Shown here: in pieces, positions 30,801 to 62,722 of the stretch | Layout: each line of letters opens with the position of its first letter | Position numbering within the stretch: the stretch's first letter is position 1 | Assembly (NCBI GenBank): GCA_944474755.1 | Contig: OX104112.1 | Location: 88,177,756 to 88,241,755, forward strand | From: Limnoperna fortunei | Taxonomy: Eukaryota > Mollusca > Bivalvia > Mytilida > Modiolidae | Length of the DNA stretch: 64,000 bases | Reading direction: 5' to 3' | The notes under the pieces: model-generated | The model's input: only the letters and a program-made list of their open reading frames with translations | Database searches by the model: none | What the model was told of the DNA's origin: nothing | Position numbers and translations under genes: made by a program

Positions 30801-32310
30801 TCATGCGCTGGTAGGTTGCTGGAGAATTAGTAAGACCAAATGGCATCCGGTTATATTCATAAAATCCCAAGGGACCAACGGTAAATGCTGTTCTTTCCTT
30901 GTGGTTTTCAAATATTTCTATTTGATGGTAACCACTCTTCATATCGACTGTGCTGAAGAATGTGCTTCCGGCGAGACAGTCAAGAAGTTCTTCTATTCTA
31001 GGGAGACTATAGCTATCTTTCTTCGTTACAGAATTCAGCTGTCGATAGTCCACACATAGTCTTAGGTTGCCATTCTTTTTCCTCACCAGCACAACGTTCG
31101 ATGCCCATGGACTGTGCGATGGTCTGATGGTACCAGCAGAGAGTAAATGACGAAGGTGATCTTTAACTTCATCGTACATCGAAGATGGTATGCGACGATA
31201 TCTCTGCTTAAAAGGCTTTTCATCCACTAAATCAATCCGGTGTTTAACCTGTGTGTGGCCTAGATCTCCATCATCTTTTGCAAATATATCCACATAATCT
31301 TGTATCAGTGTAATACCAGCTTCTAACTGCTCCTCGGTGAGGTCACTCTTGGTAATCTTAACTTGTTCTAAAATATTTGGTATGACGGATGGTGATGACT
31401 TTTCCTCTTGCTCCAATGTAACAGGTTGAACCTCACATATAACTGCTTTGGGTGGAATAGTAATGGTCCTGGTAGTAAGGTTCGCTATTTGAACATTGAT
31501 GGTTCCGTTCTCCTTATATCTGTAGTTGATAAGTCCAGGCTCAATTTCTAAGTCTCTCCAATTTGGCTGAAGTTTTGACGAATGAAGCATAGCAGGAGTT
31601 AAACTGTATGGTAGTTCCTTATCAAGATATCCTTTTATCTGTGTTCTGGTGTTGGGTGTAATTGTAACTGGTCGAGTAACTGCATTCCTGACTACTGCCA
31701 AAATATTGTTGTTTCGGTTCAACTCCTTTTCTCGAAGGCTGATGGAACGAAAAGCAAGATACCATGGCGTAGTCAAATCGCAGGATTGAAGAAATCGATC
31801 ACCATGTTCCTGTTTAATGTCATCCATGATTGGTCGTAGAATGTTGGTTCCAATCAACAAAGGTACATGGGTGTTGTAGTGACTGTCAGGAACGACAAGT
31901 AGTACACATGGGTATGTGGTGCTTTGGTGTGGCAGCTGAAGTGTTGTCTCAACTAAGCCGATGTAGGGTAACTGTTGTCCTCCAGCACACTCTATATCTA
32001 AGATGGTATCAATAGTTTGAAGATTAACTGAAGATAAATTGTTGGAATAATAAGTCTGACTGATGGTAGACACTGTTGATCATGTGTCAAGTAAAGTCTT
32101 CACTTTATTACCATTGAGTAACACGTCTGTCTCAGTTGGATTTCCAAAAAGTCCTTGAGGTATTTTCCTATTTTCAGTGATTGTAGGACCTGGGGTATCT
32201 GTTTCTAAGCCTAGTGACGGTCCTGTTCCATAGGCTTCCTGGAGTTTAACCCTTGGTATTGTTTCGGTGGGTTGGCACATCCAATCCTCTTGTGTCCTTC
32301 TTGACCACAT
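27889..32310 (-). CDS. pol: Gypsy pol: protease, reverse transcriptase, RNase H, integrase (two in-frame stops)
   Basis: One frame on the minus strand, entered from gag by a -1 shift at 32250-32244. Order: aspartic protease (VLLNGNKVKTLLDT, about 32135-32083); reverse transcriptase with SGYHQIEI, MPFGLTNSPATYQ and FIDD (30755-30744); RNase H with TDASGTALGAVL; integrase with an HHCC zinc region and a D-D-E core (LDYLKL, SDQGGSF, PERFNRTL); then a basic GPY-like region and an acidic, Ser/Thr-rich tail. A TGA at 32082-32080 replaces the residue after the protease catalytic Asp-Thr, and a TGA at 29475-29473 replaces the residue before PGM in the integrase zinc region. Both stops break an otherwise open frame, so this copy is probably not autonomous. 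Confidence 0.95.
32185..32250 (-). promoter_or_regulatory. Predicted -1 ribosomal frameshift signal (slippery site plus pseudoknot)
   Basis: Within the 100-nt gag/pol overlap the minus strand has GTTAAAC (32250-32244), placed so that gag reads TTA AAC. After a 6-nt spacer comes a perfect 7-bp stem (AAGCCTA 32237-32231 with TAGGCTT 32213-32207). Its loop contains AGGACC (32224-32219), which is complementary to GGTCCT downstream (32190-32185). Slippery heptamer, spacer length and H-type pseudoknot all fit the standard -1 frameshift design. GTTAAAC is a known slippery heptamer. Confidence 0.8.
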
Positions 32311-37952: not shown

Positions 37953-38700
37953 ATTGGTTGAGTTGGTCGTACAAAATCGATATGGAAGAAGCCTCTTTTT
38001 TTCCAAAAACGTTTGACATCGTTGGTAACATACTTTCTGACTGTGCAATTAAATTTGTAGAGTATTTTATACACGAGTATTGTCATAGGTAAAATGGAGT
38101 GTGGAACGTATCGAAATCGGCCGTTAGATACCGGCGAGTCTTTAAGCCCGTGAGTTGAAGTGGTAAAGGCTAAATCTCACCGGTTACAATGAGTAATGAA
38201 TATTCATTAGTAGCGTTCAATTATAAAAAATGACCGAAGAGGATCCGATGAAATTCCGGTTATTTAACGTTTTGTTTTTGTTTGTATAAAAACAAATGTA
38301 ATTACAGCTCCATGTGTATTAGTTAACAGATATAATTTAAATAATTAATGATACTGATCTGTTTGTTTTGATCGAGTATTTTTGTAGTTCAAATTGAAAA
38401 AAGGGGGAGAGGCGTCCATGTTATAAGAAAAAATGTATCGTCATGTATTATGAAGTTCTCGCACCGTATCGTCGTGTTATTTACTTCAGTTTCAGAACAA
38501 TCACATCCATTTTTTTCTGCCATAGTTGTTGCATTTGCTTAAAAAAACATTTTTCGGGGTTATAAAAAGTAGCCCATATTATCTACTTAAAAATATTGTT
38601 AAAATATGCACTATTTTTGTATGCCCAACACACTGCGCTATTTGTATATGTTCGATCTCTTCTTATTATCTTTTAATGGGAGTCAATAATCTGACGAAGG
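37953..38700. other. Non-coding stretch with one isolated core of the 68-bp repeat
   Basis: Nothing coding. At 38173-38190 the sequence CTCACCGGTTACAATGAG is an exact copy of the inner core of the two large arrays, preceded by GAGTTGAAGTGGTAAAG, which resembles the spacer of the right-hand array in the other orientation. Confidence 0.6.
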
Positions 38701-39720: not shown

Positions 39721-41741
39721 GTATCTCACCGGTTACAATGAGGTGCGATATTCAACTGATTATGCACCAACTTATAATGACCAAACTTGTATCTCACCTG
39801 TTACAGTGAGGTGCGATATTCAACTGATACTGCACCAACTTATAATGGCCAAACTTGCATCTCACCGGTTACAATGAGGTGCGATATTCAACTGTTAACG
39901 CATCAACTTATAATGAGCAAACTTGCATCTCACCTGTTACAATGAGGTGCGATATTCAACTGATAATGCACCAACTTATAATGACCAAACTTGTATCTCA
40001 CCGGCTACAATGAGGTGGGATATTCAACTGATACTGCACCAACTTATAATTGCCAAACTTGCATCTCACCTGTTACAATGAGGTGCGATATTCAACTGAT
40101 AATGCACCAACTTATAATGACCAAACTTGTATCTCACCGGCTACAATGAGGAGCGATATTCAACTGATAATGCACCAACTTATAATGACCAAACTTGTAT
40201 CCCACCGGCTACAATGAGGTGCGATATTCAACTGATTATGCACCAACTTATAATGACCAAACTTGTATCCCACCGGCTACAATGAGGTGCGATATTCAAC
40301 TGATTATGCACCAACTTATAATGACCAAACTTGTATCCCACCGGCTACAATGAGGTGCGATATTCAACTGATTATGCACCAACTTATAATGACCAAACTT
40401 GTATCTCACCGGCTACAATGAGGTGCGATATTCAACTGATAATGCACCAACTTATAATGACCAAACTTGTATCCCACAGGCTACAATGAGGTGCGATATT
40501 CAACTGATACTGCACCAACTTATAATGGCCAAACTTGCATCTCACCTGTTACAATGAGGTGCGATATTCAACTGATAATGCACCAACTTATAATGGCCAA
40601 ACTTGCATCTCACCGGTTAAAATAAAGTGCGATATTCAACTGTTAACGCATCAACTTATAATGACCAAACTTGCATCTCACCTGTTACAATGAGGTGCGA
40701 TATTCAACTGATAATGCACCAACTTATAATGACCAAACTTGCATCTCACCGGTTACAATGAGGTGCGATATTCAACTGTTAACGCATCAACTTATAATGA
40801 CCAAACTTGCATCTCACCTGTTACAATGAGGTGCGATATTCAACTGATAATGCACCAACTTATAATGGCCAAACTTGCATCTCACCGGTTACAATGAGGT
40901 GCGATATTCAACTGTTAACGCATCAACTTATAATGACCAAACTTGTATCTCACCTGTTACAATGAGGTGCGATATTCAACTGATACTGCACCAACTTATA
41001 ATGACCAAACTTGTATCTCACCGGTTACAATGAGGTGCGATATTCAACTGATTATGCACCAACTTATAATGACCAAACTTGTATCTCACCGGCTACAATG
41101 AGGTGAGATATTCAACTGATACTGCACCAACTTATAACGACCAAACTTGTATCTCACCTGTTACAATGAGGTGCGATATTCAACTGATAATGCACCAACT
41201 TATAATGACCAAACTTGTATCTCACCGGTTACAATGAGGTGCGATATTCAACTGTTAACGCATCAACTTATAATGACCAAACTTGTATCTCACCGGCTAC
41301 AATGAGGTGCGATATTCAACTGATTATGCACCAACTTATAATATAATGACCAAACTTGTATCTCACCGGTTACAATGAGGTGCGATATTCAACTGTTAAC
41401 GCATCAACTTATAATGACCAAACTTGTATCTCACCGGTTACAATGAGGTGCGATATTCAACTGATAATGCACCAACTTATAATGACCAAACTTGTATCTC
41501 ACCCGTTACAATGAGGTGCGATATTCAACTGATTATGCACCAACTTATAATGACCAAACTTGCATCTCACCGTTTATAAGTTGATGCGATATTCATTTGA
41601 TAACGCACCAACTTATAGTGGGCAAACTTGTATCACTCCGATTATAATAAGGTGCAATTTACAACTAATAAGGCACTAACTTATGCCAACCAAACTTGTA
41701 TTTCACAAGTTAGAATGAGGTGTGATATTAAAACTGAAATA
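39721..41741 (+). repeat. 68-bp satellite array, left (about 29 units)
   Basis: Tandem 68-bp units, each with a core containing CTCACCGGTTACAATGAG followed by GTGCGATATTCAACTG, then variants of ATAATGCACCAACTTATAAT and GACCAAACTTG. Unit subtypes (ATTATGCAC, ATACTGCAC, TTAACGCATC) are interspersed; one unit has a 4-bp insertion (near 41341). The last three units are strongly decayed. The core is an imperfect dyad (CAYCTCA ... TGAGRTG). The same core occurs in opposite orientation at 54643-56478. Confidence 0.95.
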
Positions 41742-44519: not shown

Positions 44520-45354
44520 TTACAAGTATACCCGATTAAAAATACTAACATTTCTATTACATATTTGTACAGTCAACAAAAATGTCCTTGGATCTCCATC
44601 TAATTCATCATCTGAATCTAAAGTTTTATCTAATTCATCATCTGAATCTAAAGTTTTATCCGTATTTTTTTCAACTTCATGTTCTGCAATTTCTTGTGTT
44701 GTTGGAATTTCCTCCATATTACCTAAAATCGCATGTTCAAAACGTTTATTAAATTTTATATGAAGCACTTCAACATGCATGTTTGCTATTTCAAAATGCC
44801 TTCTAACAACTAATGAAGCATTAATGCAGCAATTCAACTTACTTTGTATTTTGAGCGTTTTCACGTGAGATGGATTCAACTCAAAAATATTTGCAGGTGT
44901 AATTTTAAAATCTGAATATGTATAAATATGAACTATATTATTAACATAGAACTTATGTACATACCGATCAAAATAACTGTTTATTAATTATGAAGAACTA
45001 TTATCTCAAATTATACAGTAAAATAACATTTTCTAGTAATCATATAGAAAACAAATTTATAACATTTATCAGGCTAAACAAAAATGAAATAACATTCAAT
45101 ATATGTTGAAAAGACAATAATAGTTGTAAAGATTGGTAACTTGAGTCAAGAGGTAGACATAACTACTTTAGTTTTCTGGTACTTATAGCCTATTGCAGAT
45201 ACATATAAATAAAATATATAGTACATTTAGTCTTTATGAACTTACTACTGCATTCAGTAATGCATTGACCAATAACATGTCTCATGGCTCTGATCCCTCT
45301 TGCTGAAGAGTCAAAAAATAAATCCTCTTCATCATTTAAAATTAACTCTGCAAA
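44520..45354 (-). CDS. Exons 21-22: protease C-terminal helix and acidic tail
   Basis: Exon 45354-45246 reads FAELILNDEEDLFFDSSARG and IRAMRHVIGQCI, the helix following the nucleophile in C48 proteases. The last exon (44911-44520) has no recognised domain and contains two tandem copies of DKTLDSDDEL, encoded by a 30-bp direct repeat near 44601-44660. The stop is at 44522-44520, followed about 80 nt later by AATAAA on the minus strand. Confidence 0.75.
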
Positions 45355-48300
45355 CTAAAAAAAACAACAAAGCAATTCTAATAAATAGGAATACTCATAT
45401 TCCTTTACCAAAATTAAATTGGTACTAGTATGCAGAAATTTTTAGAATTTCTTCAAGAATTTTTTAATTGGTTGATTTATTTCAATATGATTTTGTGAAA
45501 TAAAAATGTTCTATAATTAATTTGTTTGATTCCTTTAATTTTGAAAATATTATTATAAACATGTGCTTTTGTTTTGTTAATATGCTAATGAAGGTTAAGA
45601 CCTCAGATTTGGTCATGCTAATATATACTTGACCAGAGTTTGTTTCGTCCAACACTGACAACCTAATGCCTTTGGACTAACATAACTATTTATATTGTCA
45701 CTAAATATTACTAGTATATGATTCATCACTTGAGGTCACTAGTATAAGATTAGGCACTTGATGTAACTGGAATCTGATTTGCTACTGAAGTCACATGGAT
45801 CTTTTTGGAAGGAAATTTCTACACATAAATGATATTTGGCTTTGATAGTTCACGCAGAAATTTTTGGGCAGTCTCTGTATAGACGAATTTCTACCCAGTT
45901 ACAATGTCCTATTGTTTTGGAGTTCATAATTCTAAAAACATACTTGATGTATTTTGTCTTCAAAATTCAAACGAGATTTTTTTTTATCAACAAGGTATCC
46001 ACGATTTGACTACTATCTTTCTGCATACCACAAGAATTCACGAGAATACACAAGGACATTACATATAAAATGCCCCGTTTAGTTTTCAAATGTATTTATT
46101 TTTTAATATACTAAATACCTTTAAGATGAAGACACCACAAGAATTGGAGTCATACTGTTTCCCGTGTCTTTTAATTTGCACGCTCCAGTTGTCAACAAGA
46201 CTATTACCAATTCCTCGGTTGTATCTTTCAGCAAGAAACAAACTGTCAGAAATTGAAAAATTTAATAAATATTTTCGATTATAGCAAAACACAGGCATAT
46301 TGTTGTTAGTATTTTTGATATCTGATCTTTAGAATGAGAATTCCACATAATTTTTTAATGGCATTTATTTCATATTAAAATTAGCTTTACCTTATACATA
46401 ATTTTATAAAAACTAATACAAAAGGATTTAGTAATATTTTCTACATCTTCCGACTCATGTTCGTTGGAAACATTATGCATACTTCTATTAGTTTTCAAAA
46501 CAAACGTACATCCAACACTGCAAATATTTTTGTCGTTTTCTTATCGGTTCGCCTAATGAATTCAGGTACAACAACTGACGTGTTTCTGGAAAAATAACCT
46601 AAAACGAACAGCAAATGAAAAAAAATAATTATGTTGTGTTTGTTTGAATCGGGTTTTATGTAACTTTTAGCAATATTACAGCACTATCATAGAGATATCA
46701 TTGTAAAATGTAGTTTATATTCATATTTACGGATATTTACAGCTGCGTATTGTTTGCTAATGTTGGTGTCTGGGTGGAATACGTCGGTTTTGCTATATTG
46801 TTCGTTCATTTGTAGCTTTGTTTTAGTCATTAAGTTGAAACCATTGTGAATTTATTGTTACCATAAAAGTTTGTATTACATTAACAACCATATATTTCCG
46901 CAATACAGGTTTGTTAATATGTTAAGCCGCACAGGTCTTTTGAGACGACAATACTGTTTTAATTGTATGCGAAAATGCTATATTACGTATTCTTGTGATC
47001 ATATAAAATGGAAGGGAAATAAGAAACCATATAGACGTACGTAACAAAAATAACTATTTTTAATTATAAAAGATTGTTTTTATTAATACCATTAAGGTCC
47101 AATGAACTCCATTTTCATTAAGTCCACCAATAAGGATATCATACTCATCAATGTTAACCTGAAGGAAAAAACTCTTATATAAACTTTTATTTTCAGATCT
47201 TTATATGCGTTGTCTTTGCAGCAAATTAAAACAAATACACCTACATTCTGTCTTGAGACTAAAGACAACGCGAACATTTTGAAGTCGAATATAAATCTTT
47301 ATCTCAAAAGAAGAAAGTCCACATTAAATTAGACAAATTTAACTCTCAATTTGTATAACTATTCCAGCTGCATCAGTATGAAGCATATTAAGTATTTCAG
47401 CGTAATTCTCTAGTCTACTATCTTATCTAAGAGTGATTTTTCAGTCACTACAATGAATTTGTTCCTCTATTTGTTTGTTTGTTTCAATTGGGTTTTACGC
47501 CACTTTCAAAATTTCATGTCATTGGAGGAAGAAGCGGACGTATCATGTTAAAAACCCTGACCTTCTGAATGAAAAATGACAAGCCTTGTCCTATTGTTTA
47601 AGTCATGCATATGTTTTGAGCGTTTGTTGAGGTTTAATAATGACCATGTGTTTGTGAATTTGTTGTTAATGTTAATATACTCAGTAATATGTAACTAGTG
47701 TTCACAATTGTAGTTTTATTGCCTTTTATTTGTGGTATTATATGGTTCAGAGATCTCTATAAGATGTCTTCCACCAAATGACCTAAACATGTCTTATCAT
47801 TTTGTAAATCTGAACTTAATCACACATCACAACAGTTAAGACTTGCCTCACTGAGAAAACCGTGGACTGGGAAGGGATCCTCTAAATTAATCACATCACT
47901 GAAAATAGATGACATAATTTCACACGGTATGAACCGCACACGTTTCCCCTGCAATGACAAACATATTGATATTCTAATTAGCACTATGACACATAAATAT
48001 GTAACATTGAATCCAATTCATACAGATGAAAACCAAGTACATGAACCATAAATAATAGAACATTTATTCCACAATATATGCAGGTTAGATGATTTTTTAG
48101 GGAGTACAAAAACTAAATTACAGTCTTAGTTCACCAGTAACACAAAAAATTTTAACTATTACTCGGGCAGTAAAGAAACTGATGTAATGGGGTTTTATGG
48201 AACTGGTGAATTTGTAACGTCGTTTAAAGTTGTAAAAATGAGTTTAACCTTAGCAATTCTTTAACATACCTTGCAATTTCTACATTTTAAAGATATATAT

Positions 48301-51300
48301 GCATTCACTACCTGAAAAAAATAATTACGCAGGTATACTACCTTTAAACAATAAACATGTTTTATAACAAGATACCTACCGTGAATTTTCTTCTACTTAG
48401 GCAAAATCTATCGGAATTGTAAACATATATTGGTTTTATTTCATTATATAACAAAACATATTATATACAACAATAATATGATATAGGTTTCCTTATAAAT
48501 GATAACACGCTAATAATGTACTGGACGAAAAAATATACGCTGTTATTCAGTCTGGAACGTTTTGTCTTTTTTGCAAAGTACTTTTGTTGCAATGCATAGG
48601 GACCACGTTTGTGCATTTTACTAACATTTATATGTGAATGATTCGTATTGTTTATCGAATGTCCAATAATATATACTCAGCATTAAAATCATTACTACCA
48701 ATCGCCAAATTTAAGCGACTACTAAACCTGTACTTACTTCATCTGGTAATAGAGTATCTAAATCATCAAAGCTTTGCTGGGTTATCTTATAACCAACAAC
48801 ATCCAATACAAGGTTCCCTCGATTAAGATTAACTAAAATGAAAAATAGTGGATTTGCAAATGTTATGGTTTTTCGACAATGCAAGAAAATTTAGTTTGAC
48901 GTCTGTCAATATACTATATAAATCTAAAATTTAAGGATTTATGTTAAGATGACGATGTTATGTATAACCCATCGTTTGAGAACCGTGTTAGCAAGAACAA
49001 TACAAATATTATTTTAACAGTTACAAACTCTAACTTCCGACAAAATATATATATATGTATGAACATATTGGCTGTGAATTAACTTACCAATATTATCGTA
49101 CTCTTGCACTTGTGCAACTGGATCCTTAAATGCAACCGTTTTTCTTATTTCTAAAATAAAATTGCATGCTTCTTATTTAATCTTTCAATATAAAACATTC
49201 TACCTACACTTTCTGAAAACTTATTATATGGTCTAAAGATAATCATTACTATTGTTTGACTCCCAATGCAGGTGGTATAATCAGTTCCAATCTATATTGA
49301 CAAGGACTTACCAATTGTCCTAAGGGCGAGCGTTTTTACCATTAAAAAATAATATCTAAAGTGGCGTTAAGCCCAATTCAAACAAAACATAATTTTCTTA
49401 ATATAGTTTGATAACGAACGTGTGTTTGGTAACAACTTGCAATGAAGAACAAAATAACGAGAGACTAAACACACTCATTTCTCTATAAATTATGTTTACC
49501 AATCATACTTACTTTTCACTCGGTTCCCGTCTGAATCAGTTTCTTTTGTCTTTTTCCTTTTTCCTCCTTGTTAAATATTAATATATTAAAAGTTGTATGC
49601 TTAACTAAATGTTTATTATGTCACTAAATACTAAATAAACGAGGATGCACTGTTGAGCTTCATTTAAAGATACGTACTGTAAAGAAATTTAATGGTCCAC
49701 AACACAATAACTAACTTATTTATGTAAAGTTCATTATCTTTTTGTCTGTTTATTGTTCCTGTGTTTTATTGGCGATCCAATGTCTACTATAAAAGTATGT
49801 ATATTTATTAATTTTCAGGATATACAATATATTGGACATCTAAACAATTCAAATAATATATATGTACCTGATTTGACTTCCACTGGCTCTTCATTCAATT
49901 GATATTCATTGCTGCTTGCAGTATGCGCTGATGATTCTGAAAAAATGTCATATCACTACCAGAATGTGGAAATGAACATTTTGTTTGTGATACAGAAAAG
50001 CAATTTTACCCAATTGGACTTGCAAGTGTTCTGCATTGTTGTCAGTGTTGATTGAAGTATGTGCTGAAGATTTTGAAAATAGATTTCATATTACTGCAGT
50101 ATTTGGAAATAAATATATTTTGTGCCACAGAGCTAACATTTATTGCTGTATTTATTATATTTGACGTTCGTTTTGTTAAATAACTTGTTATGTCTGTCCA
50201 TACATGGATCAACTTTTAATAGTCAACATGATGTCATTAGAAAATCCGAACTTTTTGGTTTGAATTAAATATTCACAAATCAACGTGGTAAAAGAATTTT
50301 AATAATGTACTGACGGAGTATAAAAATTTAACAAAAGTTTATGTTATAACGGCAATTTTTAATACAAGTTTGCCCACGTCTTGTTTATAAACTGTTTAAT
50401 GTAATACATCATGAATCTATATTTACCTGTACACGCATCTTTTAAAACTTCGTTAATTTCCACTGGGATATCACATGTCCCATCGATAATAATGCATGAA
50501 TTTTCTTCACTTTGTCTTTTCCTTGTCCTTGTAAGATTTACTTTTAATTTTCTTCTTCTGTTTGTTCTCAATGGTAATTTGTTTCTACACTTCTTTTTTA
50601 CAGTTTTTCTAGTTATCTGTCGACGGGGCAGACCATTTTCTAGTGGTATCAACTTCTGCGATTCTTCGAATACAACATTTAAATGATGTATCATTGTTTT
50701 AAGTGACTGTTCATTATTTAATTTATATATGTTATTTTGAATGTCCTTCAAAATATGACTGCATGATGTTATTAGCTTCCCATAAGTTACTCCTTCTGTG
50801 GTATCAGTTGACAGGACAGGTTGCATGTCATTTGTATCTAATGAGATAACATCTTCATCATTTGAGGTAAACATGGACGATTCTGATGACAATGCAAAAG
50901 AGGACATGTCTATAACTACCGGATCTAGGTTAAAATGTGGACAGTCTCTATATGCAGGTGGCAAAGTTTCCCAATCCCAGTTTTCTACATGTGTAAAAAC
51001 AGCTAGCATGTGCTTACAGGGTAAGTGGTGTTTACCCCAGTCAATGCATTGGCATGAAGGTCCATTGTGATCTAAACTAACATAATAATTTAAGTCGGAG
51101 TCTGCACTTTTCACACGATAATTTCCAGTAATAATAACGTCTTCTGTTATGTCATCAGGATGGATAGAAATGTTTGGAGGTAGTCTTGCTATGCAATGCT
51201 CTATAAACATCTTTGGACGGTTCTTTAAGAAATCTGGAATGCTCACATGATACCGCTTGCAAATGTCCAAGCTTTTCACGTTGTACGACATGTAGCTGAA

Positions 51301-54300
51301 AATAAAGTGAGATTTCTAATATTGATAATGTTGTTAAAATTTTCATTTTATTTAAAACTCCATGATAATCTAAAAGTGGATACGTGTGGAATTTCAGCTA
51401 AACATGTTGTTACGGTACCTATATAATACGATGGAGCTAAAGAAGTCCAAAATTTTAAAAGCACACAGACTTATGATTAAAAATTTAATATTAAATAAAT
51501 GTAAATGTAAATTTAAAACTCACTCGTCATAACTTTCTCTCAGAAATGTGTCTATCAGTGTTGATACTAATGTTGTCAGGCTTCCATCTCCATAATGTTT
51601 CAGGTAATTTTCTTTTAAATCTCGATGTTTACGTTCCAATCCATTGGTGGTATTAAGTCTCACATTTACAAGATGTTTTCTGAATGCAAATACCCATCTC
51701 TGAAAACAAAATTCTTGACTTTACATAAATGGTGGGCGATAACTAAATTATATTATAATACTGCACCGGAAATTTGTATTGAAATCTAATATAAATAATT
51801 ATTCCATTTACTTTTCCTGAAAAGGGCAGTGATCTCTCTCAAAAATATGTTCCTTGGAGCCGTTTGTTAGCTAAATATCAACTAAATGCAATATAGCTTT
51901 TACACACAGTCCTATCACGAACGCATTCAATATTTACTGCCTAGCTCAAGATGTTACGTTATATGCATTATTCACGAGGAACATGTTAAACTCTATGCTT
52001 TACAGACAATTGTGTACTGTCTCATCTTCTATCACATGTACAATACTTGTAATAACACAAGTACAGAACTAACTTGGTATTCAGGAAACCATTTTCTTTC
52101 CAGCCAAGACTTCAATTTTGGATTACTTTGATATACATTGCTGGTTTTCAGCTCATCAAGATGATTGTCATAGTCATCCTGAGTAGAAGAATTTGCTATC
52201 TTTCGTAAACTAAAATAAAAACATCAGATAATTGTAATATCCATCAACTGCAATTACAACTTTAAAAGCCAGAAAATGGACAAAACAAGAACAAAATGAA
52301 AAGGTGGTACGTAGTAAAATAATTAAATAATAAGCATGGAGAACAGTACAATTTATTCTGTCAAAGGCAAAAAGAATATTTCTGAGGGACACACAGAACC
52401 AGAACAAAAAATAAAATATGTACATAATTACACTGAGTGATTATTCCATTTGAGCAAACAAAGTTTCAAGATATAAAAATCTCTCCCCCTGTTATTTAGA
52501 TAATGCACTAATTTAGTTACAAAAACTGGCTATACATTTCTGATCAACTGAATAATAAAGTTAATCATCTGATATGTTCATGTGAAGAAAAAGATTTACA
52601 TGTTGCAAACATACATTTTTAAAACTTCATCTTTGTTGTTTGTCAACCCATTCTTGAGTTCCTTTAACCATCTATCCCGTGCCTGTTCCCTATGGAAGGT
52701 ACAAAGGTACGTGGAACATCCTGGAAAAAAAATCATAACAATCATAGCATTATTAGCTATTATGAAAACTACAGTTAGCTATACACATTTTGGAATTCAG
52801 TTTTTTGTATTAAAGTTCACATTTCCTATTAACAGATTTATGGTTTCGGACAAAATGACGTAACTTGATTATCACATACGTCCCTCCTTCCATCTATGAA
52901 TCAGTATTTATGTACACTGTACTATACAAATTCACAATGATCCGTCTGTAACGTAAAAGCTCTAATTGAAACAAAGATTGAAATACTAAATATTCAGAAA
53001 GAAATTGATTTGTTTTCCATTCTGAATACATATAGCATCTATGTTACCTGGAAAAACTTCCTCAATTGCAGCGATTTCTCTTTCATCAAAATCAGTCAGA
53101 AAATTTGATGGCATCCATTCTGGATTCCAATTTTTAAAGATGGTAAGAGCTTCAGCAATGCAATTTTTAGATTCATTTGAAGCAATAAATGTACCACAAA
53201 TGGAATAGCCAACATTGGTCTGCACGCAAAGGAGAAAAAGAGGCAGATCATACTTGCTGGTGTTGTATGTGGCATCCAGCAAGCATAGTTCTTTCCCGTA
53301 CAACATGAGCAAACGCTTTTGCCATGAAGTTTGATGAGCAAATAGGAATCCAGAAGGATGGGAAATTTCGTCTGATTCCTGTTCTTGCTCACACTCAACC
53401 TGTTCCCTGAAATATAAAGGTGTTTACACGTATACTGCGGACTGTTATAAAGGTTTCATTATTGCGACATTTTTATAGAAACTGGGTTCTTAGTACCAAG
53501 ATGTTAAACAGTATTAAGATTTTGCGGTAATATTGTATTGAATGGACACAAAACTCAAATTTCTATTTTCTGCTGTATTGTTTGTATACGAATTCAGTTA
53601 AGTATTTGGAAATACTGAGCTACATAAATCTTTTAAAACTAAATTACCATATTCAACACTTAAAAATGATAAGTGTATTGTGACCTCTACAATTGTGGGT
53701 GTTGGTAACAATAGTTTCAGGGCACCTTGTTACACACATAAATCACGATAAAAAAATACTAAATTTTAGGTTTATATTTCGCGTTTGTTTGACACAGTGT
53801 ATTTTACTTAAACAAAGGGAATAGAAAACGACGGAGATATCATGTCTGAAACTACCAGGACGCAGAAGTTACTTACGCAGTTTTAACATAAAAATAATCT
53901 GTTGGCCTTTCTGTTTTCCATGCATTAACCATGCACTGAAGATTTTGCTGATCCCCAAGTGAAAACCTGAAACGATGATAATAATATATCCGTATTTTCA
54001 AGGTTATTTAATGTGATTTAAAATGTTGTTATTATTTTTACAAAATTTTCAAAAGATTTCTCCTTCCATACTAAAAGAAGTAATTCACCATTCATTCAAG
54101 TACTGTTATAGAGCAACTGTGTCATATTTCAACACTTTGTACAACTATCTCTCTGGATATATAAAAAACGTTGCTTACAATACTCTTTCTCTCATAATGT
54201 TTTGCAAACTTATCTTTTTGACTGTATCAGTTGTTGTGCAACATTTTAGAACAGTCTTTTAATTGTCACCAAAGACTTAACTAGTAGAAAACAATTTTGA

Positions 54301-57300
54301 TATAGTTTGGTCTAAATATGTGAAAATATTGTACGTAAGGACCCATTTATTTCTATAACATATTTTGTTATTTTTTGGTTTTTTTTTAAGTATTACAAAC
54401 CTTGATTTCTGCAACGTATTATAGATGTGATTTCTTATATCCTTAGTACTGGGGAAGTAACGCCTATTGTTTCTGGAAACTGCTATTCCAGGAAACATTT
54501 CCTTAGATACATAGTTATCCAGGAATACTTTGACATCGGACACTTTTCTTATACCGAGCATGGCTAGTTCCGTAATTTTCTTTCTAATCTTGTTTGCAAG
54601 TGGTTGGCAATATCCAGCAAACTGCAATAATTAATTTCAACTTTTAATAGGTTGAATATCACACCTCATTGTCACCGGTTAGATGCAAGTTGAGGTATTA
54701 ATGATGAACATATAAACGGCTAATAATCACACCTCATTGTAACCGGTGAGATGTAAGTTGAGGTGTTAAAGATGAACATATAATCGACTGATTATCACAC
54801 CTCATTGTAACCGGTGAGATGTAAGTTGAGGTGTTAAAGATGTACATACAGACGGTTAATAATCACACCTCATTGTAACCGGTGAGATGTAAGTTGAGGT
54901 ACTAAAGATGAACATATAATCGACTGATTATCACACCTCATTGAAACCGGTGAGATGTAAGTTGAGGTGTTAAAGATGTACATATAAACGGCTAATAATC
55001 ACACCTCATTGTAACCGGTGAGATTTAAGTTGAGTTGCTAAAGATGAACATATAATCGACTGATAATCACACCTCATTGTAACCGGTGAGATGTAAGTTG
55101 AGGTGTTAAAGATGAACATATAATCGACTGATTATCACACCTCATTGTAACCGGTGAGATGTAAGTTGAGGTACTAAAGATGAACATATAATCGACTGAT
55201 TATCACACCTCATTGAAACCGGTGAGATGTAAGTTGAGGTGTTAAAAATGAACATATAATCGACTGTTTATCACACCTCATTGTAACCGGTGAGATGTAA
55301 GTTGAGGTACTAAAGATGAACATATAATCGACTGATTATCACACCTCATTGTAACCGGTGAGATGCAAGTTTAGGTGTTATAATGACTGTATAATTGGCT
55401 GTATATGGCACCTCATTGTCACCGGTGAGATGTAAGTTGAAGTGTTAAAGATTAACATATAAACGGCTAATAATCACACCTCATTGTAAGCGGTGAGATG
55501 TCAGTTGAAGTGTTTATGATAAAAATATAAACGGCTAATAACCACACCTCGTTGTAACCGGTGAGATGTAAGTTGAGGTCTTAAAGATGTACATATAAAC
55601 GGCTTATAATCACACCTCATTGTAACCGGTGAGATGTAAGTTGAGGTGTTAACGATGAACATATAAACGGCTAATAATCACACCTCATTGTAACCGGTGA
55701 GATGTAAGTTGAGGTGTTAAAGATGAACATATAATCGACTGATTATCACACCCCATTGTAACCGGTGAGATGCAAGTTTAGGTGTTATAATGACTGTATA
55801 ATTGGCTGTATATGGCACCTCATTGTCACCGGTGAGATGTAAGTTGAGGTGTTAAAGATGAACATATAAACGGCTAATAACCACACCTCGTTGTAACCGG
55901 TGAGATGTAAGTTGAAGTGTTAAAGATGAACATATAAACGGCTAATAATCACACCTCATTGTAAGCGGTGAGATGTAAGTTGAAGTGTTTATGATAAAAA
56001 TATAAACGGCTAATAACCACACCTCGTTGTAACCCGTGAGATGTAAGTTGAGGTGTTAAAGATGTACATATAAACGGCTAATAATCACACCTCATTGTAA
56101 CCGGTGAGATGTAAGTTGAGGTGCTAAAGATGAACATATAATCGACTGATAATCACACCTCATTGTAACCGGTGAGATGTAAGTTGAGGTGTTAACGATG
56201 AACATATAAACGGCTAATAATCACACCTCATTGTAACCGGTGAGATGTAAGTTGAAGTGCTAAAGATGAACATATAATCGACTGATAATCACACCTCATT
56301 GTAACCGGTGAGATGTAAGTTGAGGTGTTAACGATGAACATATAAACGGCTAATAATCACACCTCATTGTAACCGGTGAGATTTAAGTTGAGGTGTTAAA
56401 GATGAACATATAATCGACTGATTATCACACCTCATTGTAACCGGTGAGATGTAAGTTGAAGTTTTAAAGATGTACATAACATTTTTTGTCCAATCCTATT
56501 GACAAGTTAGTCATAGGCTGTTTGAAAATTAAATTTACATTTAAAAAAATACCTCTCCCGTCAGGTGATGTTTATGGTGTTCAACCTCTGGAAAATTGAT
56601 GTAAAATCTTGCTTCTTTTTCCACTAAACCAATTGCAACATCTGCTTTTATTCTTTGAGTAATCTGCCGTTTGGCCCACTCCGACACCAGTCCATCAACC
56701 TATACATAGATTGTTTGTTTGTTTGAATGCTGTTTAACGCCAATTTTCAGAAATTTTTCAGCTATATCATAGCGTCCAATTTTCATTGAGGGAGGAAGCC
56801 GGAGTACCCGGAGAAAACCCCAGACCTTTGGTAGGAAAACTGGCAATCGTTGTGAGTTAAGCTTGGAGTCGAGCGCGCACTGCCCCCAGTGAGACTCGAC
56901 CCCGCAATCTCAGTGTCTCAGTGTGACAGACCATGTGATCAATAGTAGACAACTACCTTAATCTCTCGGACACCGAGGCTCCCTATACACAGAGTATTGT
57001 TGACTGTTGAACTGACTGACGCAATGTTAACAATACATATACTAGTTTTCTTTACTAACCAGAACATTTATTGCAGGTAAATTAATTTGTCCCCAAAATT
57101 TCAGATATAATATTAACATACAATTAGAACTCTAAGTGTTACTTGTAAGCATCTTCATGAATGGTATTCCAATTCTTAATATTTTGACTATTAGGACGGA
57201 CTAACATTTTTAAGTAGTATATGTAACTTTACCCTATATTGTGGTAGTTTGATGACTACTACTACTTTAATAGCAGCAAGACATCCCATTTTCTTCGTGT

Positions 57301-57917
57301 CCTGCAAATGTCTTCTTCTCTTTGTGCCGTAAACGTGGTCTTTGATCTAATAATATAAAGAAAAATGTGATTCCGTTCGGCCGTTAATGTAAAAACAGTC
57401 CAATATTTTGTAAAAGGAACGATTTAAATACGATATAATCCAATACCAAGGATAGGAATAATATTTCTTAATTAAAATGTCGTCTCAAAAACATTTCAAT
57501 TAGCGGGTGCACAATCGTCATCAGGAAAAAACTGTATGTTTTTTTGTTTAACATCCAAAATTTATTTTTAAAAAAAATGATGCGCGCTAAGCCTAGAGCT
57601 ACAAATCATATTAGAGCGGCCTTTGCAGAACTTATGTACAATACATGTAAATAATTACTGGTAAAATACCTGACAACTGGACTCCTGTGGCTTATTTTGA
57701 TCAACTTTTTTCTTATGCTGTGCACCATTGTGACATTCAAATATTTCATGTCCTACTATGAAAAATGGGATGCCATCATAATCAATTGATGTTCCGTCAG
57801 GCCAACTTTTACTCCAAAAGACCTTTTTTCCATTAAAAGTTTGATCTGATGAAATGAATAACTGTGGATTTATTAATAAAATATGTGTTTTGTCATGTCT
57901 ATGAAGTACATTTTTGT
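44520..57917 (-). CDS. 22-exon gene: CARF-like region, MULE transposase, SWIM finger and Ulp1-type protease in one frame
   Basis: Minus-strand exons, high to low: 57917-57670, 57346-57233, 56699-56553, 54621-54401, 53966-53877, 53406-53048, 52720-52615, 52209-52074, 51699-51524, 51295-50427, 50063-50010, 49936-49868, 49566-49513, 49150-49088, 48832-48738, 48311-48270, 47948-47847, 47158-47090, 46598-46510, 46242-46119, 45354-45246, 44911-44520. Every junction has AG acceptor and GT donor (one GC donor) and all phases match, giving at least 1241 residues without a stop. Domain order, counted from the first visible residue: CARF-like 1-270, DDE transposase 270-530, SWIM near 605-630, basic and acidic linker to 900, Ulp1/C48 protease 905-1110, acidic tail. 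The start codon lies upstream and was not found. The likely role is transposition with a built-in SUMO-protease-like module; the catalytic state is unproven. Confidence 0.85.
46119..46598 (-). CDS. Exons 19-20: Ulp1/C48 protease with Asn at the acid site and the nucleophile Cys
   Basis: Exon 46598-46510 reads VIFPETRQLLYLNSLGEP; exon 46242-46119 reads WSVQIKRHGKQYDSNSCGVF. The Cys of S-C-G-V-F is the nucleophile and the Gln six residues before it is the oxyanion-hole residue, both with Ulp1 spacing. The residue 17 after the catalytic His, where Ulp1 has Asp in Y-D-S-L, is Asn here. The donor AT|GTACGT joins exon 19 in phase 2 to exon 20. Confidence 0.85.
47090..48832 (-). CDS. Exons 15-18: Ulp1/C48 protease, N-terminal half with catalytic His
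   Basis: Exons 48832-48738, 48311-48270, 47948-47847 and 47158-47090. They read ITQQSFDDLDTLLPDE then VVNAYISLKCRNCK, the Ulp1 substrate-groove pattern (D-x-L-x-x-L...D-E-V-I-N-x-Y) with Leu where the usual Trp of W-L-N-D stands. Next come FIPCEIMSSIFSD and VNIDEYDILIGGLNENGV, ending HWTLM; the His of H-W is the catalytic His. The third exon ends in a GC donor (GAG|GCAAGT). All junctions here are phase 0. Confidence 0.82.
49088..50063 (-). CDS. Exons 11-14: short low-complexity linker exons
   Basis: Four small phase 1-1 exons (50063-50010, 49936-49868, 49566-49513, 49150-49088). They read HTSINTDNNAEHLQVQLG, SSAHTASSNEYQLNEEP, GKRKKTKETDSDG and VAFKDPVAQVQEYDNI. Exons 11 and 12 begin alike (AHTS, AHTA, preceded by TCTTCAG/TCATCAG-type sequence) and probably arose by exon duplication. 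They bridge transposase and protease. Because all are symmetric, each could be skipped without a frame change. Confidence 0.7.
50427..51295 (-). CDS. Exon 10: SWIM zinc finger and basic linker
   Basis: The largest exon, 289 full codons. It carries a SWIM finger of the form C-x-C-xn-C-x-H (CQCIDWGKHHLPCKHML, plus positions about 51007-51056), a domain typical of MULE transposases and thought to bind DNA or protein. An acidic and Ser-rich stretch follows, then a strongly basic one (RRQITRKTVKKK, TNRRRKLKVN, TRKRQ), a likely nuclear localisation region. The upstream acceptor TTATTTTCAG joins in phase with exon 9. Confidence 0.92.
51524..51699 (-). CDS. Exon 9: MULE third acidic residue
   Basis: It reads RWVFAFRKHLVNVRLNTTNG followed by LERKHRDLKENYLKHYGDG. 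The Glu in T-T-N-G-L-E (plus positions near 51640) is at the place of the third catalytic acid of the MULE DDE triad. It ends in phase 2 at GAC GA|GTGAGT. Confidence 0.88.
52074..52209 (-). CDS. Exon 8: MULE helical region
   Basis: It reads LRKIANSSTQDDYDNHLDEL and ends SWLERKWFPEYQ, the W-x-x-x-W-x-P-E/Q-Y stretch before the final acidic residue. Acceptor TTTTATTTTAG, donor CAA|GTTAGT, phases 2 and 0. Confidence 0.86.
52615..52720 (-). CDS. Exon 7: MULE C-x-x-H region
   Basis: It reads STYLCTFHREQARDRW, the C-x2-H motif between the second Asp and the last acidic residue in MULE transposases, then NGLTNNKDEVLK. Acceptor TTTTTTTTCCAG, donor AAAAT|GTATGT, phases 1 and 2. Confidence 0.88.
53048..53406 (-). 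CDS. Exon 6: MULE transposase core with first two catalytic Asp
   Basis: 119 codons. It begins with an acidic stretch (ECEQEQESDE), then FAHQTSWQKRLLMLYGKE, then the first catalytic Asp in LCLLDATYNTSKY and the second in FLTDFDEREIAAIEEVFPG. These are the usual MULE sites: a hydrophobic strand ending L-D-A-T and a D-x-x-x-x-E-x-x-A helix region. It ends in phase 1 (CCA G|GTAACA). Confidence 0.9.
53877..53966 (-). CDS. Exon 5: linker before the DDE domain
   Basis: 30 codons, phases 2-2 (CGTTTCAG|G, GC|GTAAGT). It reads DQQNLQCMVNAWKTERPTDY, matching the DQEN-L...W...P-x-D-x-F linker that precedes the transposase core in this family. Confidence 0.8.
54401..54621 (-). CDS. Exon 4: CARF-like/MULE N-terminal domain
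   Basis: Starts after ATTATTGCAG with FAGYCQPLANKIRKKI and includes DNYVSKEMFPG and NRRYFPSTKDIRNHIYNT. The NRR-Y/F-P-s-x-x-D-I-RNH-x-Y motif is the most recognisable signature of the animal CARF-like/MULE group. It ends in phase 2 (TCA AG|GTTTGT). Confidence 0.85.
54643..56478 (-). repeat. 68-bp satellite array, right (about 27 units), inverse of the left array
   Basis: Tandem 68-bp units, each with CTCATTGTAACCGGTGAG followed by ATGTAAGTTGAGGTG and a variable part (AACATATAATCGACTGATTA or AACATATAAACGGCTAATAA). The core is the exact reverse complement of the left array core, and the remaining 44 bp align at about half the positions without gaps. The first unit (GTTGAATATC before the core, GATGCAAGTTG after it) is closer to the left array than the rest. 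The array fills most of the intron between exons 3 and 4 of the transposase-protease gene. Confidence 0.95.
56553..56699 (-). CDS. Exon 3: CARF-like region
   Basis: 49 codons, phase 0-0, from GTATAG|GTTGATGG to GGAGAG|GTATTT. It reads EARFYINFPEVEHHKHHLTG, followed in the next exon by FAGYCQPL; this HxxHxxxGE-FAG junction is characteristic of the family as I recall it. The intron after it is 1931 bp and contains the right 68-bp array. Confidence 0.78.
56711..56982 (-). mobile_element. tRNA-derived SINE, nearly complete, minus strand
   Basis: Read on the minus strand: GGTGTCCGAGAGATTAAGG head, TACTATTGATCACATGG, GGTCGAGTCTCAC B-box region, TCTCCGGGTACTCCGG and a GATATAGCTGAAAAATT ... GTTTAACAGC...CAAACAAACAAA tail. 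It lies in the intron between exons 2 and 3 of the transposase-protease gene. Confidence 0.85.
57233..57346 (-). CDS. Exon 2: basic and zinc-like segment (CARF-like)
   Basis: 38 codons, phase 0-0. It contains KRRRHLQDTKKMGCLAAI, a pattern found in CARF-like and MULE N-terminal regions, where the Cys with upstream Cys/His may bind zinc. Acceptor ATTATTAG, donor AGG|GTAAAG. Confidence 0.75.
57670..57917 (-). CDS. Exon 1 (first recognised): CARF/ALS2CR8-like N-terminal region
   Basis: It reads KNVLHRHDKTHILL, then FWSKSWPDGTSIDYDGIPFF and IVGHEIFECHNGAQHKKK, ending at CAG|GTATTT (phase 0). The DGIPF...G...ECHNG pattern recalls the N-terminal part of CARF-like and animal MULE proteins, an assignment from memory of the family. 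The acceptor chosen follows a long T tract (TAACTAAAG). Upstream exons are likely but unrecognised. Confidence 0.65.
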
Positions 57918-58091
57918 CTTTAGTTAAAAAAACAACAAATAAATATCTCCACAATTAAGGTCGTGTTAACAGTTGATACTGTGGAAATTGAGATATTTGA
58001 TAGTAAGCAATTGGTTAACACGAGTTAATATAGCAGGAGCGGACTCGGTCAGGGGAGTAGAGAGGCATGCCCCACTACCCCAAATTTGTCC

Positions 58092-59420: not shown

Positions 59421-59835
59421 AATACTTTCTTTGACCTTCTGATAACATTTTACATATGGCAATGCAGCCATAGTTGGCGCTCTTATTCTGGTTTCTAAGT
59501 TCCGGTATCAAAAGAAACACAAACACATATTTTATAATTTTTAATGCTGAACCGACAGAGCTTCACAAGACATTTTAACGTGAAATTTTATGCTTATAAG
59601 TTCTTACATACGTTTTTTTATCTCCTATAGACTTTTGTTGTTTAATATCCAGCATACAATTAGAACGCCTGAAACAAGAACGTTACCATAGCAATGTTCG
59701 TGTTTCTTATTGGATGCCACGAGTAGTGATGAGGGCGCGTGAACTCATCTCAACATGACATCGACCGTTTACGAAAGAATAACATATCCATCATATTGCT
59801 GAACCTGAAACACAGCCAAGGAAAAATCGTCTGGG

Positions 59836-60109
59836 TGGGGCCTCGGTAGGCGTGTGGTTAAGGTAGTTCGTCTACTAGTGATTATGTGGTCTTTCAACCA
59901 TGAGATTACGGGTTCGAGTCTCGAGTCTCGCGGCGGGCAGTGTGTACTCGACTTTAACCTTAATTGACAAGGATTGCTAGTTTTCCTACCGAAGGTCGGG
60001 GGGTGTCTCCGGGTACTCCAGCTTTCTCCTCAATAAAAACAGGACGCCATGATATAGCTAAAAATTGCTGAAACAGGGGTTAAACAACATTCAAACAAAC
60101 AAACAAACA
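59836..60109 (+). mobile_element. tRNA-derived SINE, best-preserved copy
   Basis: GGGGCCTCGGTAGGCGTGTG head (A box), GGGTTCGAGTCTCG B box with a small local duplication, AATTGACAAGGATTGCTAG body, GGTGTCTCCGGGTACTCC, and a GCCATGATATAGCTAAAAA ... GTTAAACAACATTC tail ending in three to four CAAA repeats. It serves as the reference for the other copies in this window. Confidence 0.88.
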
Positions 60110-60475
60110 ATCCATGACCCGGCTTTTCAGATCCGGTTGACCAACTGTTACAACTTGGTCAAAAGATAATAAAGTTACATAAACTACTGGAAAAGATTAC
60201 CGAAGGAAAGCCTACTGCATTAGGCAGAATATTGGCACAAACTGTAGACGAATGTGGATTTCATAGAAGACACGCAGTTTAAACGTCTTCTTCACCTATA
60301 AAACATGAACGACATAATATGGCTGAAAATGGCCGAGTAGCATTAAACCCCATTTAAATAAACAAAATAATAAACACTTTTGAGTAATATTCCTTATATC
60401 TGTAGTCAGATAGTGAAACAAACATATACTTAAATATGTCCTGTAAAGTCTATGAACATCTACAATTTTTTTTAG

Positions 60476-61993: not shown

Positions 61994-62509
61994 GTTTAAG
62001 TATCGATTAATATAACAAACAACAGGCACAGAAGTTTGGAATTACACAGTTTGAATAAGGCGTCTCCGGCACCTTAAGACGATTTTATACAGACAGTAAC
62101 AATTTTGTAGACTTACTTGTTAATATTAATTTTAAAATAAATATACTTTTTTTTTAATTTTGTCCATCTCTTAAAATGATGGTTGTACACAATGTGTGTG
62201 TTTGTGCAGTTCTCATTTTTTAGCTCCCCGGTAACGACTACGTATAAATAAAAAAACATTTTAGACATACTGGCTCAATAAATGTAACTGAGCAAACGTA
62301 ACTATTAAATTTATACCGCTGAATTAAGTAAGTTACCTATAAATTTCATTGGATAAAAGACGTCACGCGAAATCTAAATAAATATATCACAAATTTAGTA
62401 GAATTTTTTGCGGTAAATAGCAACTAGTATTTTAGCAATTTATTCCCTCGATTCGAAAAAAGGGGAATTCTGTTTTACCCTTGCCCGCTCGTCCGTTTGT
62501 TCCTTCAGG

Positions 62510-62722
62510 GGCCTCGGTGGCCGAGTGGTTAAGGTAGTTTGTCTACTATTTTTCACGTGTTCTGTCAACACTGAGATTGCGGGTTCGATTCTAACTGCAA
62601 ACAGGGTGTACTCGACTCCAATCCTAATTGACAAGGATTGCCAGGTTTCCTACCGCAGGTCGGGGGTTTTCTCCGGGCACTCCGACTTCCTCCTTAATGA
62701 TATACCATCAAACAAACAAAAG
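62510..62722 (+). mobile_element. tRNA-derived SINE
   Basis: GGCCTCGGTGGCCGAGTGG head, CAACACTGAGATTGCGGG with GGTTCGATTCTAAC B box, GACAAGGATTGCCAGG, CGGGGGTTTTCTCCGGGC, then a truncated tail ending CATCAAACAAACAAAAG. Confidence 0.85.

Follow-up and report, generated by a model that had tools for sequence, protein, structure and literature searches.

A giant intron-rich Mutator-like transposon of Limnoperna fortunei that probably encodes a transposase joined to a Ulp1/SENP-like domain

Introduction

Transposons that are not related to each other have been reported to carry Ulp1 or OTU protease domains (PMC2836005). Hydra and lancelet Mutator elements are among those with a Ulp1 (pfam02902) domain, and a figure legend refers to such domains in 'Mutator TPases' (PMC2836005, 2010; statements on this and the other papers cited here refer to the parts of them that were available). 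In Ginger1 transposons a DDE transposase and a C-terminal Ulp1 or OTU protease form one protein, encoded with 0-4 introns in elements of 2.6-7.1 kb, and a role of these domains in transposition, for example via repair, was proposed (PMC2836005). The plant Mutator-like elements (MULEs) Kaonashi and VANDAL, which are of the kind without terminal inverted repeats (TIRs), have Ulp1 outside the transposase, in an accessory gene named KIU that is one of their three genes (PMC13317346, PMC5735166). Here we analyze a stretch of 64,000 nucleotides, referred to as the window, from the bivalve Limnoperna fortunei (assembly GCA_944474755.1, 1.335 Gb in 285 contigs; contig OX104112.1, here C2, positions 88177756-88241755). 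The window holds what is probably a giant MULE in which transposase and Ulp1/SENP-like domain are parts of a single protein.

Other animal MULEs provide further points of comparison. Muta1 of Aedes aegypti is an active element with subterminal repeats and target site duplications (TSDs) of 8-9 bp, and its sister family Muta6 has a C-terminal SWIM finger (PMC5225508). SWIM fingers and TSDs of 8-11 bp are described for several MULE groups, including MULE-Mollusca and MULE-Cg (PMC6446971). An 'Ovarian Tumour Gene' is named there for MuDR-6_HM, and the words Ulp1, protease and peptidase are absent from the main text of that paper (PMC6446971). Lengths of 1.4-10.0 kb were given for MULEs in an arthropod survey (PMC13359780), and a bivalve library required a single open reading frame (ORF) of >300 aa (PMC10294476).

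Results

Gene model and encoded protein

We modelled the gene on the minus strand of the window as 21 exons (57915-44520), whose joined frame of 1203 aa has no internal stop and ends with a stop codon at 44520. The original prediction for this locus, made from the sequence alone, had joined 22 minus-strand exons with matching phases and no stop. The count is 21, whereas the strand and the open frame stood; splice phases agree at 20 of the 20 junctions, and frame-shifting junctions, which had been named beforehand as an outcome that would speak against the prediction, are absent from the model. Exon borders are AG acceptors and GT donors throughout, except for a GC donor at exon 16. These borders were picked by eye for fit, and the independent support from Pfam and from a relative of the gene weighs more. 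The exons, with the evidence for each, are:

57670 to 57915, minus strand: exon 1 as modelled, start of the ALS2CR8/CARF-like region; the exon starts at 57917, its first full codon is at 57915, and it has no Met
56553 to 56699, minus strand: exon 2, ALS2CR8; joined frame and Pfam
54401 to 54621, minus strand: exon 3, ALS2CR8; joined frame, Pfam and relative
53877 to 53966, minus strand: exon 4; joined frame and relative
53048 to 53406, minus strand: exon 5, MULE core with D279 (53276-53274) and TDFD 340-342; frame, Pfam and motif
52615 to 52720, minus strand: exon 6, C-x2-H motif (C361/H364)
52074 to 52209, minus strand: exon 7; joined frame and relative
51524 to 51699, minus strand: exon 8, catalytic E457 (TTNGLE)
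50427 to 51295, minus strand: exon 9, SWIM finger (51066-50988) and basic linker
50010 to 50063, minus strand: exon 10, linker, less certain; joined frame
49868 to 49936, minus strand: exon 11, linker, less certain; joined frame
49513 to 49566, minus strand: exon 12, linker, weak acceptor, less certain
49088 to 49150, minus strand: exon 13, linker, less certain; joined frame
48738 to 48832, minus strand: exon 14, beginning of the conserved protease region; frame and relative
48270 to 48311, minus strand: exon 15, 42 nt, fused with exon 16 in the relative (144 nt there)
47847 to 47948, minus strand: exon 16, 102 nt, GC donor
47090 to 47158, minus strand: exon 17, protease His962
46510 to 46598, minus strand: exon 18, Asn979 where SENP2 has Asp
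46119 to 46242, minus strand: exon 19, Gln1025 and Cys1031
45246 to 45354, minus strand: exon 20, end of the protease domain
44520 to 44911, minus strand: exon 21, acidic tail at the C-terminus, including a duplicated 30-bp unit, and the stop codon

Exons 10-13 (54, 69, 54 and 63 nt, all of phase 1-1) are the least certain of the model, and omission of any one of them leaves the frame intact. As a possible 5' exon we picked by eye a stretch with an ATG at 59471 and a donor after 59351, whose phase fits exon 1. It is weakened by its overlap with a local duplication (~80-83% alike) and shows no special conservation, and it remains a candidate only.

Pfam was run on the joined protein, and all five matches exceed the curated cut-offs. 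From the N-terminus these are ALS2CR8 (aa 90-202, E 1.5e-18), ZSWIM1-3_RNaseH-like (aa 259-356, E 2.1e-13), MULE (PF10551, aa 277-364, E 2.8e-12, 47.3 bits against a cut-off of 27.6), SWIM (PF04434, aa 571-597, E 2.5e-6, 27.3 bits against 19.6) and Peptidase_C48 (PF02902, aa 944-1047, profile positions 75-187 of 217, E 3.1e-10, 40.7 bits against 20.7). The order of CARF-like region, DDE core, SWIM finger and Ulp1 domain was thus as originally predicted, and the residues named at the time are present as well. They comprise the DDE core residues (D279, D340 or D342 of the TDFD at 340/342, and E457 of TTNGLE), the C-x2-H motif (C361-x2-H364), a complete C-x-C-xn-C-x-H SWIM finger (C575, C577, C587, H589) and the H, Q and C of the protease. 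A comparison of the transposase part with solved structures gave no match better than E 0.18. For the protease domain, the nearest solved relatives by sequence are SENP2 (E 8e-8) and SENP1 (E 8e-6). In the alignment with SENP2, His962, Gln1025 and Cys1031 fall on residues that we take to be the catalytic ones of that enzyme, and all three are kept in the relative of the gene described below.

A diverged relative and the case for one protein

A relative at C2:30.703-30.714 Mb is ~60% identical and has the same exon order on one strand. The search for its splice sites covered exons 3-9 and 15-20, with sites listed only in the expected phase, and at least one candidate site was found at both ends of each exon sought, with exons 15 and 16 merged. 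Exon lengths were not imposed by this search. For exons 3-9 they are 221, 90, 362, 106, 136, 176 and 878 nt in the relative and 221, 90, 359, 106, 136, 176 and 869 nt in the window; exons 15 and 16 correspond to 144 nt versus 42 + 102 nt, exons 17-19 are identical in length (69, 89 and 124 nt), and exon 20 is 112 nt versus 109 nt. The two pieces of the relative match ALS2CR8, MULE and SWIM on the one hand and C48 on the other, above the Pfam cut-offs. Non-synonymous divergence (pN) between window and relative is 0.264 over 634 transposase codons and 0.267 over 179 protease codons, and synonymous divergence (pS) is 0.78 and 0.74, respectively, which is near saturation. Constraint is equal on the transposase and protease halves.

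The Ulp1 gene of plant MULEs stands beside two other genes in the element (PMC13317346), and the present element could similarly be divided, as Kaonashi/VANDAL, into a MULE transposase (exons 1-9) and a separate Ulp1-like gene (exons 10-21). The weak definition of linker exons 10-13 would fit this arrangement, as would two AATAAA words in intron 9, albeit in AT-rich sequence. However, intron 9 is only 363 bp long, and there is no in-frame Met in the window protein between aa 695 and aa 921, which is already inside the protease region. Furthermore, the relative has an exon-9 donor at the matching place, and read-through past this donor soon stops in both genes (at position 50361 of the window and 9 codons further on in the relative) after unlike peptides. 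Two separate genes are therefore quite unlikely. Since no in-frame Met lies between transposase and protease core, one fused transposase-protease protein is the most likely product. The fusion is further supported by the open frame, the kept exon lengths, the equal constraint and the stops past the exon-9 donor, in agreement with the initial proposal that the transposase itself includes the protease as one of its domains.

Element ends and target duplications

Stretches of eight loci were compared with the window DNA (10 kb each for C13 and two C6 loci). The unit common to the copies reaches far past the gene, from 38162 to 59517 of the window, and has abrupt edges, which are TIRs starting GGTAAAGGCTAAATCTCACCGG. 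A TIR search within the window alone returned mostly repeats shared with a SINE-like sequence, and the ends were obtained only through comparison of copies. The element in the window, its left TIR and the three copies with both ends are:

38162 to 59517, minus strand: whole element in the window copy, 21,356 bp, from the copy comparison
38162 to 38258, plus strand: left TIR (GGTAAAGGCTAAATCTCACCGG...), on the side of the gene's 3' end, with a sharp homology edge shared with other copies; length taken from the C11 copies
C11 53609429 to 53631237: copy C11:53.6 Mb, 21,809 bp, perfect adjacent 9-bp TSD TTCTTGATA on both sides
C7 4361292 to 4376886: copy C7, 15,595 bp, perfect adjacent 9-bp TSD GTTTTTTAG on both sides
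C11 37437199 to 37459471: copy C11:37.4 Mb, 22,273 bp, 9-mer GTTATTTGT on both sides, the left one 3 nt off the TIR

The two TIRs align over 97 bp in C11:53.6 Mb (85/97 identical) and C11:37.4 Mb (87/97), and over 45 bp in C7 (44/45). The perfect adjacent TSDs, found at two of the three loci at which both ends were seen, are within the 8-11 bp expected for a MULE. TIRs and 9-bp target duplications are hallmarks of the Mutator superfamily. Copy C11:53.6 Mb extends 192 bp past the edge of the window copy and ends in the right TIR.

Satellite arrays of a TIR motif

A 20-mer, ATCTCACCGGTTACAATGAG, lies in the TIR and is the common part of two 68-bp satellite arrays:

39721 to 41737, plus strand: left 68-bp satellite array, 29.6 units, motif ATCTCACCGGTTACAATGAG oriented as in the left TIR
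54658 to 56478, minus strand: intron-2 68-bp satellite array, 26.8 units, motif oriented as in the right TIR of other copies

The units of the two arrays differ in sequence except for the motif and a few bases directly after it. With up to 2 mismatches allowed in the counts, every motif found in the four copies examined (4/4) points the same way as the TIR closer to it. The window has 26 forward motifs, which are confined to the left half and include the one in the TIR itself, and 27 reverse motifs, which are confined to the right half, for a total of ~52 in the two inverted arrays. Forward and reverse counts are 20/36 in C11:53.6 Mb, 72/69 in C11:37.4 Mb and 1/34 in C7, which is without the left array. 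The whole genome contains 278 exact copies of the motif versus 0 of a reversed control, and the places among those listed are the known copies, clusters on C4, C5, C6 and C7, and single matches on C2 and C3. Within the right array, conservation is higher in the motif (0.976) than in the spacer (0.880), and in the left array there is no such excess (0.950 versus 0.953). The natural reading is that the arrays are putative binding sites for the element's own protein.

Dispersed copies

A genome search with the joined protein gave at least 44 matches from the best 38 of 465 candidates, and intron-bearing copies are found on six other large contigs (C5, C6, C7, C11 with two, C12 and C13). Substitution relative to the window was measured in seven copies outside the exons and the intron-2 array. 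It is 0.44% for C11:37.4 Mb, 1.0-1.1% for C7, C12 and C11:53.6 Mb, 2.2-2.3% for C5 and C13, and 5.9% for C6:54.6 Mb. The values of 0.4-2.3% in six of the seven copies indicate recent insertions. Between the window and C11:53.6 Mb, substitution is 0.75% in exons versus 1.13% outside them, a small difference that carries no main argument.

These values bear on whether the locus is a giant element or a captured gene, between which the original prediction had not chosen. A host-captured (domesticated) gene that has departed from its transposon would be in line with the open exons of the model, the constraint relative to the distant relative and a window copy that appears to be without one TIR. However, outside the exons the window differs by only ~0.4-1.1% from the C11, C7 and C12 copies and it shares their left end, as a young insertion would, making capture very improbable. 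The dispersed copies, the TIRs and the 9-bp TSDs favor the giant element. Segmental duplication of a host gene could produce a large intron-bearing unit on several contigs, but is scarcely credible for copies that share their start and end bases with inverted repeats and have perfect 9-bp TSDs in two of three cases.

The copies vary in their state. Every modelled exon is open in the window copy. All 21 exons are present in C11:53.6 Mb, where exon 10 ends in a 6-bp gap; exons 3-15 were not found in C11:37.4 Mb; C7 matches exons 1-19 only and has gaps in exons 1, 8 and 9; and C5, C12 and C6:54.6 Mb contain in-register stops.

At two short loci, C4:43116844-43121235 (~4.4 kb) and C6:57576153-57581967 (~5.8 kb), the outer TIR motifs face inwards, and the C6 locus also has protease pieces bearing stops; both loci are possibly internally deleted derivatives. 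Another MULE group (L002-L007, on the six contigs C3, C6, C2, C8, C4 and C10) has frames of 982-1152 aa without introns. The L002 and L003 proteins are nearly the same, and L003 is without a C48 match. Long open frames of 767, 824 and 382 aa at C9:68104453, C1:56037111 and C13:30084635, respectively, are 32-35% identical to the protease part, the last with a TAG inside the protease match.

Other features of the window include an exact 30-bp duplication (2.1 units) at 44598-44660 in exon 21, which gives an acidic DKTLDSDDEL repeat; in copy C5 this exon contains an additional stretch. A ~280-bp repeat at 56706-56984, which is also present at 59837-60115 and 62507-62700, is tRNA-derived and SINE-like by eye. 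In intron 1 it directly adjoins the exon-2 acceptor, and its flanks, ctgtgtata(g) and ctatgtatag, suggest that this acceptor was perhaps copied by the target duplication of the repeat. GC content is 0.43-0.45 at 28001-32000 versus 0.28-0.38 in the remaining 2-kb steps.

Discussion

The best explanation of the locus, to which we assign a probability of about 0.83, is a giant cut-and-paste MULE transposon of ~22 kb with one large gene encoding a single transposase with a Ulp1/SENP-like domain. The gene would be transcribed right to left in the window, and the predicted protein would run from a CARF/ALS2CR8-like N-terminus through a DDE core with C-x2-H, a SWIM finger and a basic linker to a C-terminal Ulp1/SENP-like domain. 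The CARF-like domain, the SWIM domain or both may bind the motif in the TIRs and arrays, and the DDE core would cut the ends and insert the element, with a stagger of 9 bp. Substrates of the tethered Ulp1-like domain, from which it would take off SUMO or a related modifier, could be the transposase or repair and silencing factors on the element. A more specific proposal is an anti-silencing transposase of self-targeted de-SUMOylation, which would recognize the TIR motif, coat its element through the two inverted arrays into which this motif has been amplified, one of them intronic, and whose unusual His-Asn-Cys domain would strip SUMO from silencing or repair factors, thus uniting in one protein and one DNA what the plant VANDAL splits between genes. 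We consider this tentative and rather unlikely. In anti-silencing of the VANC type, a protein encoded by the element binds tandem motifs and DNA methylation is lost; of these traits, the present element has the motif arrays.

Several points weigh against the reading of the locus as a giant MULE with a single fused protein. At the 5' end, neither the start codon nor the 5' exon of the gene was found in the window gene model. At least one 5' exon is absent from the 21 exons, because no Met is present in exon 1, whose frame opens past a stop at 57957. In the relative, the agreement in phase is partly by construction, and exons 1, 2, 10-13 and 21 are outside the comparison. The 15 diverged loci (<75% identity) of the protein search were compared by hand with a search using the protease part (best 135 of 155 candidates; one locus of this comparison, C145, is a short contig), and at that sensitivity 11 of them have no protease match within 30 kb. 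The other four (C2:30.7, C11:10.36, C13:45.55 and C6:86.38 Mb) speak in favor of the fusion, each with a protease match that follows the transposase match on its strand at a distance of no more than 30 kb. Two more MULE-protease pairs, with the protease 43% identical, are found at C2:38.30/38.29 and C12:27.163/27.150 Mb.

Further points of this kind come from the young copies. Exon 2 of C11:53.6 Mb has two 1-bp insertions, and no examined locus combines both ends with a fully open frame in the stretches fetched. The protease halves of the window and C11:53.6 Mb differ by 1 synonymous and 3 non-synonymous changes (ratio 0.76), and such changes among young copies are too few for judging selection; relative to the decayed copy C5 the ratio is near 1 in both halves. 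The right TIR piece of the window copy was not found in the rest of the window or in 4 kb beyond, nor was a second copy of its left 9-mer as a TSD partner. The window copy thus appears to have lost its right end; alternatively, there may be a larger insertion at 59517, with the right end farther away. Because of this apparent loss the window copy can probably no longer move, although its protein could still act in trans. With the 5' exon missing from the model and no right end found for this copy, the word 'intact' in the original prediction was too strong.

A further point concerns the protease-related domain. Asn979 (LYLNSLG) aligns with the Asp of SENP2 (YLDSMG), so that the Asp of the His-Asp-Cys triad is not matched, and the relative also has Asn at this place (LYLNPLG). 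Because Asn stands in place of the catalytic Asp, protease activity is doubtful, though possible, since a His-Asn-Cys set is used by papain-type proteases. For the same reason we refer to the domain as C48-related, with no claim of a proven C48 peptidase.

The fusion appears to be old, as it is kept in a lineage ~60% identical with equal constraint on its halves, yet the family has young copies. Because the fusion has been kept and equally constrained in a family with young copies, it is probable that the element needs its protease-like domain. With >20 exons in ~22 kb, this MULE is well above the length range of 1.4-10.0 kb given for arthropods, and annotation based on a single long ORF may miss or split such elements. 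The arrays of the TIR motif offer a ready candidate for the DNA target. In the available parts of the open-licence literature, including PMC6446971, PMC13359780, PMC10294476 and a giant-transposon review, we saw no MULE with an ALS2CR8 region, a length of ~22 kb or a gene of >20 exons.

Among vertebrate host proteins, ZSWIM1/3 and CARF (ALS2CR8) resemble the present protein by family only, in that the ZSWIM1-3 RNaseH-like and ALS2CR8 Pfam models both match it. To our knowledge, these host genes are without a protease domain. Muta1 is similar as an animal MULE with subterminal repeats and an 8-9 bp TSD, the SWIM finger being found in its sister Muta6; a protease domain is not mentioned in the available parts of that paper, in which no search aimed at Ulp1 was made. 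The MULE groups of PMC6446971 have TIRs of a length like those of the present element, and minisatellites are named there, in the parts available, for Rehavkus and the aphid Phantom. Plant Kaonashi/VANDAL elements share with it a Mutator element with a Ulp1 domain, but the present element has TIRs and its protease exons are in frame with the transposase. Ginger1 has the transposase and a C-terminal protease domain in the same protein, as here, but its transposase is of the Gypsy-integrase type, with no MULE/SWIM core. The hydra and lancelet elements are likewise Mutator with a Ulp1 domain, and the available parts of that paper mention no length, exon number, ALS2CR8 region, SWIM finger or motif arrays for them (PMC2836005). 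The Ulp1-bearing Mutator kind is therefore already known, and the present element is a variant of it that is unusual in size, intron number and layout. Overall, by analogy with these systems, it appears to join in one protein and one DNA parts comparable to those that the others possess.

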